Source: Pseudoponticoccus marisrubri
GTDB taxonomy: Bacteria; Pseudomonadota; Alphaproteobacteria; Rhodobacterales; Rhodobacteraceae
Length of the DNA: 64,000 nt
Direction: 5' to 3'
Assembly: GCF_001482405.1 (NCBI RefSeq)
Contig: NZ_LPXO01000001.1
Coordinates: 558,001-622,000, forward strand
Made by a program: the position numbers and the translations under genes. Positions 4,755-10,622 of this stretch are shown in pieces (position 1 is the first letter of the stretch; every line of letters starts with the position of its first letter). The notes beneath the pieces were generated by a model, which saw only the letters and a list, made by a program, of their open reading frames with translations, was not told the DNA's origin and made no database searches.

Positions 4755-4787
4755 ATTTGTGATCACGCACTTGCAACGTGTGATCAC
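4755..4787 (-). promoter_or_regulatory. Paired TGATCA operator upstream of sdhC
   Basis: Read toward sdhC, the element is GTGATCACACGT, nine variable bases, then GTGATCACAAAT. The two TGATCA palindromes (4760-4765 and 4781-4786) are 21 bp apart, two helical turns, so two protein dimers could bind one face of the DNA. The same element, with the same 12-base arms, orientation and nearly the same distance, precedes sucC. The binding protein is unknown to me from sequence alone. Confidence 0.75.
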
Positions 4788-4816
4788 ATGGTTTCGCTAA
4801 CAGCGCGGGCCTGAAA

Positions 4817-4844
4817 CGCAAAGGGCCGGCGCGCTGCGCCGACC
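4817..4844 (-). terminator. Terminator of the 67-residue gene at 4902-5105
   Basis: A 9-bp stem with one G-U pair (4824-4832 with 4836-4844) and a 3-nt loop is followed on the minus strand by a short, interrupted T-rich stretch. It separates the upstream small gene from the sdhC promoter. Confidence 0.5.
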
Positions 4845-4901
4845 CACGGATTCTGTCAGGAAAAGGGGACACCAGAGCGCCGGACGGCCGCCCGTGCCCT
4901 G

Positions 4902-5105
4902 TCACTCGGGAAAACCCATGTGCCGCAGGGCAAGGCTGCCTTGCTGGCGCAGGGCCGGGTCCTCGGAGCGCAGATCGCGGTGGATTCGCGCCATCAGCGG
5001 GGTCAGCGCCTTGTTGCGGATCAATCCGCGCATGGTGTCGGGCATCTGCTCGGCCGGGATGGCCAGAAGATCATCGGGTGCCGAGGGCAAGGCTGGACGT
5101 GTCAT
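4902..5105 (-). CDS. 67-residue hypothetical protein upstream of sdhC
   Basis: A small soluble protein with one likely helical region (residues 22-64, RGLIRNKALTPLMARIHRDL onward) and no signal peptide or membrane segment. The start is supported by an AGGGAGA ribosome site 5 bases before the ATG. A hairpin terminator follows the stop. It lies between mch and the sdh operon on the same strand. No family recognised and no function can be stated. Confidence 0.55.
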   Translation of the reverse strand: MTRPALPSAPDDLLAIPAEQMPDTMRGLIRNKALTPLMARIHRDLRSEDPALRQQGSLALRHMGFPE

Positions 5106-5231
5106 GTGCGTCTCCCTGTACTGGTGCGGTCGTTCCTCTCCCCAGGCAGAAGGATACGGAACCCTGACCGGCGCGCCAAGCCCCGTCTTCGTGTCAGCCG
5201 CATCACCGGACGCAACGTCCGGCTTGCCCGG

Positions 5232-6263
5232 TCATTTCGGAATCAGCACCCAGATGTCGAGATCCAGCAGCACCCCGGGCAGGTAGCGCCCGTCCTCGCC
5301 CCGCAGATCGAAGGGCGCACCGTCTTTGTTCGCGACCAGCCGCAGCCGCAACGCCCCGACCCCGGGAGCCGGCGTGTCGGCCTTGTCCAGCACCTCGGAC
5401 CAGGCCTTGACCGTGTCCCCGGCAAAGCAAGGCCCGGCATGGGCGCCGCCGTTAAGCCCGACCACCATCTGCGCATTTGCCAGACCGTTGAAGCTGAGCG
5501 CGCGCGCCAGCGAGATCACGTGCCCGCCATAGATCAGTCGCCCCTCGGGGCGGAAGCTGAGGTCGAAATGCACCTTGGCCGTGTTCTGCCAGAGCCGCGT
5601 CGCCATCATGTGCTCGGCCTCTTCCACCGTCACGCCGTCCACGTGGTCGATGGTCTCGCCGATCTCGTAATCGCTCCAGCGATGCGGCTCACCCGCCAGG
5701 GTGAAATCGTAGCCGGTGAAGTCGAGCCCCTCGGGAATGACCAGATCCTCGGGCGCCAGCGCCTTTTTCAGCTCGGGCAGCACCGTCTCGGGCGCGGGGG
5801 CCTCGGCGTCGCGCTTGCGCACCATGACCCAGCGGCAATATTCCAGCACCGCCTCATCGCGCTGGTTGAGTCCGCGCGTGCGCACATAGACCACGCCGGT
5901 CTTGCCATTGGAATTCTGCTTGAGCCCGATCACCTCGGAGGAGGCGCGCAGCGTGTCGCCGGGCCAGACCGGGCGCAGCCAGCGCCCCTCGGCATAGCCC
6001 AGGTTCGCCACGGCGTTCAGCGAGACGTCCGGCACCGTCTTGCCGAAGACAAGGTGGAAGGCCGCGAGGTCGTCGATCGGCGCGGCCGGCAATCCGCAGG
6101 CCTGCGCGAAGGCGTCCGAGGAATAGAGCGCATGCCTTGCCGGGTAGAGCGCGTGGTAGAGCGCCCGCTCGCCCCCCGAGACGGTGCGCGGCACCGCGTG
6201 GTCGATCACCTGGCCCACACGATAATCCTCGAAGAAGCGGCCCGGGTTGGTTTTGGTGCCCAT
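5232..6263 (-). CDS. mch: Mesaconyl-CoA hydratase (beta-methylmalyl-CoA dehydratase)
   Basis: A 343-residue protein with two MaoC/hotdog-type halves, matching in length the mesaconyl-CoA hydratase known from Rhodobacter. The enzyme interconverts mesaconyl-CoA and beta-methylmalyl-CoA in the ethylmalonyl-CoA pathway of acetyl-CoA assimilation. The N-terminal half starts GRFFEDYRVGQVIDHA and carries VWPGDTLRASSEV. The C-terminal half repeats the pattern at YEIGETIDHVDGVTVEEAEH and FAGDTVKAWSEV. The ATG at 6263 overlaps the stop of the DUF1737 gene (ATGA). A longer frame to 6332 overlaps that gene and is rejected. The nearby mcl2 gene supports the assignment. Confidence 0.88.
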   Translation of the reverse strand: MGTKTNPGRFFEDYRVGQVIDHAVPRTVSGGERALYHALYPARHALYSSDAFAQACGLPAAPIDDLAAFHLVFGKTVPDVSLNAVANLGYAEGRWLRPVWPGDTLRASSEVIGLKQNSNGKTGVVYVRTRGLNQRDEAVLEYCRWVMVRKRDAEAPAPETVLPELKKALAPEDLVIPEGLDFTGYDFTLAGEPHRWSDYEIGETIDHVDGVTVEEAEHMMATRLWQNTAKVHFDLSFRPEGRLIYGGHVISLARALSFNGLANAQMVVGLNGGAHAGPCFAGDTVKAWSEVLDKADTPAPGVGALRLRLVANKDGAPFDLRGEDGRYLPGVLLDLDIWVLIPK

Positions 6264-8572: not shown

Positions 8573-9328
8573 TCAGGTCAGCGCGACCCAGACCAGCCGC
8601 AGCCCGGTCAGCGTCAGCGCCACGTAGGTGATCGCGAAGAAGACGCGCTCGGACACGTAGTGATGCGCCTTGATGCCCAGCCACGTGCCCAGCACGGCAA
8701 AGGGCGCCAGCGCCAGATCCATCATCAGCGTCTCGCGCGTGAAGATCCCCATGCCCCCATAGAAGCCCGCCTTGAACAGGTTGACCGCCCAGAAGACCAG
8801 CACCGTGGTCGCCTGGTAGGTGGTCTTGGCCAGCCCCTGCCCCAGCAGGAACACCGCCGCCACCGGCCCGCCGGCATGGCTGACGAAGCTGGTGAAGCCC
8901 AGCCCCAGCCCGCCGGTCAGCCCGGTCACCGGCCCGGCCCGCCGCGTGCCCAGCCGGATCAGCCCGCGCGCCGTGGCGAATTGCCAGGCGACGAAGGACA
9001 GCGCCACCATGCCGATGATCAGCCGGATCGTGTCCGCATCGGCCCAGGCGTAGAACAGCGCGCCCAGCACCGTGCCCGGCACCCCGCCCAGCAGCAGGAT
9101 CCGCGCCGCCGGCCAGTCCCACTTGCGCCAGTAGGCCGGCAGGCTGGTCACGTCGATCAGCATCAGCAGCGGCAGCATCAGCCCCAGCGCCACCCCCGGC
9201 TCCAGCATCAGCGCCAGAATCGAGGCGCTGGCAAAGGCAACGCCCGAGCCGAAGCCCCCCTTGGAAATGCCGGCGAAAATCACCGCCGGGATGGTCAATG
9301 CAAAGACCGAAAGGCTGAACAGCTCCAC
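8573..9328 (-). CDS. TauE/SafE family sulfite/anion exporter-like permease
   Basis: A 251-residue polytopic inner-membrane protein with about eight helices. It shows the duplicated glycine-rich motif of the family: AGISKGGFGSGVAF near residue 20 and GLTGGLGLGFTSFVSHAGGP near residue 135. TauE/SafE members move sulfite, sulfoacetate or other organic anions, and the substrate cannot be read here. The start is a GTG at 9328 preceded by an AAGGGGG site. It is divergent from mdh. Despite the family name there is no evidence tying it to the tau genes at 26-31 kb. Confidence 0.85.
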   Translation of the reverse strand: MELFSLSVFALTIPAVIFAGISKGGFGSGVAFASASILALMLEPGVALGLMLPLLMLIDVTSLPAYWRKWDWPAARILLLGGVPGTVLGALFYAWADADTIRLIIGMVALSFVAWQFATARGLIRLGTRRAGPVTGLTGGLGLGFTSFVSHAGGPVAAVFLLGQGLAKTTYQATTVLVFWAVNLFKAGFYGGMGIFTRETLMMDLALAPFAVLGTWLGIKAHHYVSERVFFAITYVALTLTGLRLVWVALT

Positions 9329-9488
9329 CCGCGCCCCCTTTATTCCGTGCGCAGGGCTGCGTTTATCCTGTTGAATGCACAGGCGATAGCCCTAACAGGT
9401 GACGATGCCGCGCCGCCGCACTCTTGCGCGGGGCGTCGCGAAGGCTTACGCCAACGGGCAAATTCACGAAGGACCGGAGATCAAATCC

Positions 9489-10451
9489 ATGGCCAGACCC
9501 AAGATCGCCCTGATCGGCGCGGGACAGATTGGCGGCACCCTTGCCCATCTTGCAGCAATGAAGGAACTGGGCGACGTCGTCATGTTCGACATCGCCGAGG
9601 GCATCCCCGAGGGCAAGTCGCTCGACATCGCCGAGTCCGGCCCCTCCGAGGGCTTCGACGCGCGGCTGAAGGGCACGCAGGACTATGCCGACATCGCCGG
9701 TGCGGATGTCTGCATCGTCACCGCAGGCGTGCCGCGCAAGCCTGGCATGAGCCGCGACGACCTGCTGGGCATCAACCTCAAGGTCATGAAGGCCGTGGGC
9801 GAAGGCATCCGCGACAACGCGCCCGATGCCTTCGTGATCTGCATCACCAACCCGCTGGACGCGATGGTCTGGGCCCTGCGCGAATTCTCGGGCCTGCCCC
9901 ATGCCAAGGTCTGCGGCATGGCCGGCGTGCTGGACAGCGCGCGCTTCCGCCATTTCCTCAGCCTCGAATTCGACGTCTCCATGAAGGACGTGACCGCCTT
10001 CGTGCTGGGCGGGCATGGCGACACGATGGTGCCGCTGACGCGCTACTCGACCGTGGCCGGCATTCCGCTGCCCGACTTGGTCAAGATGGGCTGGACCACG
10101 CAGGAGAAGCTGGACGCCATCGTGCAGCGCACCCGTGACGGCGGCGCCGAGATCGTCGGCCTGCTCAAGACCGGCTCGGCCTATTACGCGCCGGCCACCT
10201 CCGCGATCGAGATGGCCGAGGCCTATCTCAAGGACCAGAAGCGCGTGCTGCCCTGCGCGGCCTATTGCGACGGCCAGTTCGGCCTCGACGGCTTCTACGT
10301 GGGCGTGCCCACGGTGATCGGCGCCGGCGGGATCGAGCGGATTGTCGACATCAAGATGACCAAGGACGAGCAGGCGATGTTCGACCACTCGGTGGGCGCG
10401 GTGAAGGGCCTGGTCGAGGCCTGCAAGGGCATCGACGAAACCCTGGCCTGA
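9489..10451 (+). CDS. mdh: Malate dehydrogenase (NAD)
   Basis: A 320-residue lactate/malate dehydrogenase-fold enzyme of the LDH-like MDH group used by alphaproteobacteria. It oxidises malate to oxaloacetate in the TCA cycle. The NAD fold shows [16 protein letters not shown] (residues 6-21). The mobile loop VPRKPGMSR has R83 and R89. The catalytic pair is D149 (LDSARFR) and H176 (GGHGDTMVP). The ATG at 9489 follows GGAG. The upstream in-frame extension to 9399 lacks conservation and is left out. A strong terminator follows the gene. Confidence 0.97.
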
Positions 10452-10473
10452 GGCCATCCCCGAAGATGACTGC

Positions 10474-10504
10474 AAAGCCCCGGCCCCGCGCCGGGGCTTT
10501 TTTT
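10474..10504 (+). terminator. Rho-independent terminator of mdh
   Basis: An 8-bp GC-rich stem (10477-10484 with 10490-10497), flanked by AAA and TTT, is followed by a run of seven Ts (10498-10504). It separates mdh from the suc promoter. Confidence 0.92.
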
Positions 10505-10589
10505 GTCTGGCACGGGGCTGCGCGCGCCCGGGGCGACTCGGGGTTCGGCACGGGGCGCGACGGTCTCTGCGCTAACAGTCGGGAGGCTT

Positions 10590-10622
10590 GTGATCACACG
10601 TCGGAAAGCTGTGATCACAAAT
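10590..10622 (+). promoter_or_regulatory. Paired TGATCA operator upstream of sucC
   Basis: The element reads GTGATCACACGT, nine variable bases, then GTGATCACAAAT, ending 108 bases before the sucC ATG. Its two 12-base arms are identical to those of the element before sdhC, with the same 21-bp spacing between palindromes. It is likely the binding site of a common TCA-cycle regulator. Confidence 0.75.

Follow-up and report, generated by a model that had tools for sequence, protein, structure and literature searches.

Tandem palindromes upstream of sdhC and sucC

The window analyzed here is a 64,000-nucleotide stretch of the Pseudoponticoccus marisrubri genome (contig NZ_LPXO01000001.1, positions 558,001 to 622,000), and coordinates are counted from its first letter. 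It contains two copies of a 33-bp element in which the palindrome GTGATCAC occurs twice. One copy precedes sdhC, the first gene of the succinate dehydrogenase operon (4254-4640, minus strand), and the other precedes sucC, the first gene of a succinyl-CoA synthetase / 2-oxoglutarate dehydrogenase cluster (10731-11924, plus strand); both genes were assigned from the open reading frame (ORF) list and from orthologues. The sdhC element lies at 4755-4787 on the minus strand, with its distal palindrome at 4780-4787 and its proximal palindrome at 4759-4766. The sucC element lies at 10590-10622 on the plus strand (distal palindrome 10590-10597, proximal 10611-10618). The step between palindromes is 21 bp in both, and the distance to the start codon is 114 nt for sdhC and 108 nt for sucC.

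An earlier note on this sequence had placed the elements at these positions and strands, with the same geometry and with identical arms, and our analysis reproduced all of this, including agreement at 24 of 24 arm bases. The note's further statement that the nine spacer bases differ holds only in part, as three of the nine also coincide. Similarly, the 33-bp repeat is real, but the 12-base arms are not the unit that is conserved. The form shared across genera is approximately TTTGTGATCACA-N11-TGTGATCACAAA, and the GT of the ACGT described in the note is barely conserved between genera.

The pattern GTGATCAC-N13-GTGATCAC occurs at these two places and nowhere else in the 4.56-Mb genome. Allowing spacers of 11 to 15 nucleotides returned the same two places, and the reversed control returned none. 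With up to three mismatches the only matches in the window were again these two, and 100 shuffles gave no match. A single GTGATCAC is present in 119 copies genome-wide, and the window holds four exact copies. Outside the elements, TGTGATCACA has one further copy in the genome, within an ORF, and TTGTGATCAC is found at six places, three in the two elements and three that by reading lie within ORFs or at their starts.

The sequence TGTGATCACA contains TGTGA and TCACA, which could be taken for the half sites of a CRP- or FNR-type operator. The CRP consensus has a 6-bp gap between its half sites and that of FNR a 4-bp gap. Here the two half sites abut, with no gap between them, and we rejected this assignment as extremely improbable. 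The motif of another regulator, CceR (RSP_1663), predicted in an excerpt of PMC4344238 to be [A/G/T]GTT N6-8 AAC[A/C/T], was missing by eye from both 33-mers, the only sequences scanned for it.

Conservation in the Rhodobacteraceae

We surveyed 248 Rhodobacteraceae genomes, one per genus, and identified the exact pair in 205 of them; the reversed pattern was found in none. Two copies are present in 143 of these genomes, one copy in 59, and three copies in 3. Outside of the family the pair was found in 2 of 332 genomes of the class, while the same draw returned it in four of five family members, the window's genome included. One of the two outside examples lies within an ORF and the other precedes a gntR/FCD gene. 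Among the matches listed, 70 sites were inspected (30 + 40), and sdhC or sucC lies downstream of the pair in 68; the remaining two are the L050 and L053 loci described below. On the strength of the window shuffles, the genome scan and this survey, we rejected a chance origin of the elements.

A second, unbiased draw consisted of 31 genomes chosen by completeness and not by the motif. Two exact cores precede sucC in 26 of 30 loci (G036 had no sucC locus at the threshold), with a step of 21 bp in 24 and of 20 bp in 2. The 21-bp pair precedes sdhC in 21 of 29 callable loci; G001 adds one more (in L120), and G014 could not be called. The earlier note had expected that the element would precede sdhC and sucC orthologues in relatives and that its arms would drift more slowly than its spacer. 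The element was indeed found there, though it is missing in some relatives, and both cores are intact in those 26 sucC loci while the spacers vary. In the alignment of cores and spacers, the cores are fixed by the selection of the loci and the spacers are not.

Several loci depart from the usual arrangement. A third 21-bp double palindrome precedes fumC (fumarase C by Pfam) in one genus (L050:1501-1529, G041:C16:228293-228321), where the regulon seems to be extended to the next step of the tricarboxylic acid (TCA) cycle. In G176 (L053:1501-1529) the genes on either side of the pair, identified by eye, are mdh and sucA, and sucCD is missing from the interval, so the operator has remained with the genes for 2-oxoglutarate dehydrogenase. 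Two genera (L314:1501-1550 in G134 and L320:1501-1550 in G190) have three palindromes before sucC, spaced at exact steps of 21 bp, and in L166 (G030) and L183 (G037) the sdhC pair is preceded by an additional lone GTGATCAC, 56-57 bp further upstream and at -199 and -202 relative to sdhC. The example before a gntR/FCD gene outside the family (L272:992-1020, G393, from another family of the class) stands opposite an ORF that by eye resembles a TonB receptor, and the tandem architecture may serve other regulators of the clade.

AkgR as the probable regulator

The earlier note had named AkgR as one candidate for a switch shared by both operons. The candidate akgR gene in this genome (P0001; contig C7:32339-32983, minus strand) encodes a protein with GntR and FCD domains, and was chosen because GTGATCAC stands directly before its start. 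The genome has 25 FCD-domain matches, and of the FCD loci examined only this gene has GTGATCAC close upstream of its start. From locus tags akgR was expected next to sdhB, but no FCD match was found there in this genome, and the gene is instead on a separate contig.

The AkgR (RSP_0981) regulon of Rhodobacter sphaeroides was reportedly described by Imam, Noguera and Donohue in mBio in 2015. The tag RSP_0981 falls next to those of the sdh genes, RSP_0974-6. We took contig C4 of G050 as chromosome 1 of R. sphaeroides 2.4.1 on the grounds that all three of the motifs tried from an excerpt of PMC4344238 fall inside the published chromatin immunoprecipitation peaks. Both tandem pairs are present there, before the sdh and suc operons as in the window. 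The protein encoded 0.75 kb beyond sdhB is 76% identical to P0001 and is taken as its orthologue, and this location fits RSP_0981, that is AkgR, the locus tag being assigned from position and not from a record. For R. sphaeroides, excerpts of PMC4344238 predict that sucCD, sdh and the genes for 2-oxoglutarate dehydrogenase are regulated by RSP_0981, and an excerpt of PMC6365646 cites GTGATCAC as an AkgR motif.

At a cut-off of E < 1e-50, an AkgR match is present in 224 of the 248 genera. Pair and AkgR occur together in 202, AkgR alone in 22, the pair alone in 3 (G019, G095 and G113), and neither in 21 (Fisher p 1e-15, a nominal value since genera are not independent). Some of the 22 genera with AkgR alone retain other spacings, such as the 20-bp pair at sucC in G009. 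Within the unbiased draw, the sucC pair is found in 26 of 26 assessable genomes with AkgR compared with 0 of 4 without it (G004, G014, G017 and G028), and the 21-bp sdhC pair in 22 of 27 genomes with AkgR compared with 0 of 3 callable genomes without it. By reading of the loci, 12 of 27 genomes have akgR no further than 22 kb from sucC or sdhC.

It is possible, though unlikely, that the element is bound by a different GntR/FCD regulator, or by a second one besides AkgR. The number of FCD proteins in the genome allows for this, as does the pair preceding a gntR/FCD gene in another alphaproteobacterial family, and GTGATCAC is also the proposed operator of a Pseudomonas GntR regulator in the excerpt of PMC6365646. 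However, AkgR, the one regulator tested, closely tracks the pair and is linked to it by locus in the genomes just mentioned, akgR carries the same palindrome before its own start in many genera, and AkgR has been tied to these very operons in R. sphaeroides (PMC4344238, in excerpt). From its conservation and its association with AkgR across genomes, the repeated double palindrome is a real, family-wide element and almost certainly a binding site for AkgR, a known regulator of the TCA cycle. The candidate named in the note is thus supported, as is the shared TCA-cycle switch. Since PMC4344238 predicts the same targets, the link of AkgR to sdhC and sucC is already known; the inference holds but is not new. 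The literature searched on AkgR, RSP_0981 and GTGATCAC describes neither the tandem 21-bp spacing nor a phased linker, nor the whole-turn differences in the distance from the sdhC operator to the -35, although the main AkgR paper lies outside that search and may contain them.

Phased A/T tracts between operator and promoter

The linkers downstream of the two operators span 4701-4754 (minus strand) for sdhC and 10619-10674 (plus strand) for sucC, where the promoter elements are putative. We aligned 57 distinct sucC and 53 distinct sdhC promoters, anchored on the operator, and found A/T-rich columns near positions 31, 40, 50, 60 and 70, in register with the operator. A period of 9.7-10.4 bp fits best, and for both genes the band power is higher than in any of 1000 row-rotation controls (1.33 for sucC, null maximum 0.15; 0.99 for sdhC, null maximum 0.10). 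The phase is common to the two promoters (profile correlation 0.78).

Phased A/T tracts might instead be a general property of promoters, acting as an UP element or in DNA wrapping, independent of the operator. A/T-rich upstream elements are common. Two of the three sdhC loci that lack both operator and AkgR show moderate periodicity, and a weak A/T period is found upstream of the sucC operator (0.086 compared with a null maximum of 0.059). However, the 115 bp preceding the operator have a band power about 15 times below that of the linker, and for sdhC no period above the null was found over that length. When anchored on the gene start, the period score is 0.209 for sucC (59 loci) and 0.183 for sdhC (54 loci), compared with a mean of 0.015 in 481 control upstream regions (p 3.5e-19 and 1.6e-14); the controls were drawn from 80 loci of named relatives and are anchored on crude gene starts rather than mapped transcription starts. 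The sucC promoters of genomes lacking AkgR score below zero in all four cases. A general promoter property is therefore a doubtful explanation of the phasing, if not a negligible one. The linker DNA is probably curved in a manner that would bring bound AkgR to RNA polymerase.

Operator to -35 distances

In the window, a putative sdhC -35 element, GTGACA (4695-4700, minus strand), lies at 87 bp, counted from the first operator base, and is followed after a 16-bp spacer by a putative -10 element, TAGAAC (4673-4678, minus strand), the latter assigned from the sequence and the family pattern. By the same count, a conserved [GT]TGAC is found at 86-89 bp in 37 of 53 sdhC promoters. In ten others it is located at 65 (one promoter), 76-77 (three), 97-98 (three) or 107-108 bp (three). 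The fit of these ten exceptions to whole turns of 10.5 bp was reached by 0 of 200,000 random sets, and collapsing equal values gives p ~1e-4; six periods were tried in this test. In the 47 sdhC promoters with a placed -35, the offset of this element from its usual position deviates from whole turns by no more than about 1.5 bp. The spacing classes require ten changes on the SdhC tree, which is weakly resolved (25 of 50 inner branches open).

A terminator-like hairpin followed by a T run, read by eye at 10476-10504 (plus strand), lies after mdh and upstream of the sucC operator, so sucC is likely to be transcribed from a promoter of its own. A weak -35-like sequence, TTTAAC, is found in the sucC linker at 10665-10670 (plus strand). 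The sucC promoter of L047 has TTGAC at 77, one turn nearer; around that position most sucC promoters carry no more than a TTT box.

The phased linker and the whole-turn steps of the -35 together suggest that two dimers on one DNA face activate through the linker. Palindromes stacked at 21 bp and helical steps to the -35 both fit dimers on the same face, held at a fixed angle to RNA polymerase. Two dimers, as the earlier note proposed, is the likeliest reading of a pair conserved before both operons.

The akgR promoter

One GTGATCAC is located close before the akgR start in all 30 of the closest loci and, within the unbiased draw, in 14 of the 26 loci that could be assessed. In 28 of the 30 closest loci (L062-L091) it is preceded by TTGAC, which is exactly 18 nt upstream in 26 of 30. 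With this spacing the palindrome would reach into the likely -10 element, a geometry typical of a repressor site, and the arrangement suggests autorepression of akgR. This fixed geometry has been lost, or was never present, in about half of the genera.

The same overlap could be read as a sign that AkgR also represses sdhC and sucC, by blocking the promoters or looping the DNA until an inducer removes it. Many GntR/FCD proteins are repressors. However, in sdhC promoters with a placed -35, 36-79 bp separate the proximal palindrome from the -35, so the core promoter is left uncovered, and helical phase with the -35 is maintained. In addition, AkgR is called a transcriptional activator in the excerpt of PMC6365646. 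Repression at these operons thus appears improbable.

Proposed mechanism

We consider it likely that AkgR acts through tandem operators to activate sdhC and sucC by way of a phased linker; it may also repress its own gene. Each element would be the operator for two AkgR dimers, bound to one face of the DNA at a distance of two helical turns from each other and approximately 88-119 bp upstream of the putative transcription starts of sdhC and sucC. Bound AkgR would activate both operons jointly and so the steps from 2-oxoglutarate to fumarate. The A/T tracts, phased with the operator about every 10 bp, would curve the linker and deliver AkgR to RNA polymerase, and the single GTGATCAC that roughly half of the genera have over the akgR promoter would provide negative feedback. 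We favor, by a narrow balance, the broader proposal of a larger conserved module, in which two dimers (three in two genera) are stacked at two-turn steps, the linker is curved and phased, and the -35 is shifted by approximately whole turns. Such a module would amount to a natural phasing experiment, in which a GntR/FCD protein bound at about -88 to -119 achieves bend-assisted activation throughout a family.

A number of observations weigh against this mechanism. Regarding AkgR, the 22 genera with AkgR and no exact 21-bp pair and the 3 with a pair and no strong AkgR match do not conform, and co-occurrence was computed for AkgR alone among regulators. Of the 27 AkgR genomes in the unbiased draw, 5 have no exact 21-bp pair at sdhC (G007, G009, G012, G025 and G029); of these, G012 and G025 keep a single palindrome before sdhC, and the G029 locus ends at a contig end. 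No GTGATCAC precedes akgR in R. sphaeroides, nor in 12 of the 26 genomes of the draw that could be assessed. Regarding the promoters, no [GT]TGAC was found within reach in 6 of 53 sdhC promoters, and chance may account for some of the short matches in the others. The definition of the sucC promoter is poor; an automatic search returned only the leader and the ribosome-binding region. Finally, the weak period upstream of the sucC operator and the periodicity of two sdhC loci without operator or AkgR count here as well, and the phasing was both spotted and tested on the same data, from genomes that are related.

These results define the operator of a regulator of central metabolism across a whole bacterial family, together with a clean and testable promoter architecture, and the natural stepwise distances between operator and -35 make the mechanism of activation by a GntR/FCD protein directly testable.

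Neighboring genes and additional observations

Downstream of sdhC, the ORF list places sdhA at 1960-3819 and then sdhB at 537-1319, both on the minus strand. Two small mechanically called ORFs lie between sdhA and sdhB (1329-2101, minus strand), the second of which overlaps the end of sdhA. The sucC cluster continues with sucD (12271-13152), sucA (13434-16400) and sucB (16447-17994), all on the plus strand. The sucC leader in relatives, corresponding to about 10700-10730 in the window, contains a conserved block with the consensus AATCGCAGCaAgACGGGACAGTTT that exceeds the length of a ribosome-binding site. On a different contig, ORFs read by eye as bacteriochlorophyll and carotenoid genes (L029, G000:C9:92000-103000) suggest a photosynthesis gene cluster in the genome.

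Comparison with known systems

By sequence, the nearest solved GntR/FCD relative of the AkgR profile is E. coli McbR (PDB 4p9f, E 1e-21). McbR is a distant relative with a different function. CitO of Enterococcus faecalis is likewise an FCD-family protein that binds upstream of its own promoters and induces them, but it serves citrate utilization in another organism (PMC4746285, in excerpt). In Pseudomonas simiae, the regulator PS417_07240, a GntR-like protein of the deoxyribonate cluster, shares the palindrome GTGATCAC and is 32% identical to AkgR; in contrast to the operators described here, it has one palindrome, before the regulator gene, and its targets are unrelated (PMC6365646, in excerpt). 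The closest counterpart is the AkgR regulon of R. sphaeroides, which has the same regulator (judged by position and 76% identity), the same predicted target operons, the same GTGATCAC, and the same tandem pairs. It belongs to a different genus, where akgR adjoins sdhB, which it does not in P. marisrubri, and where akgR has no GTGATCAC before its start, while that of P. marisrubri has one.

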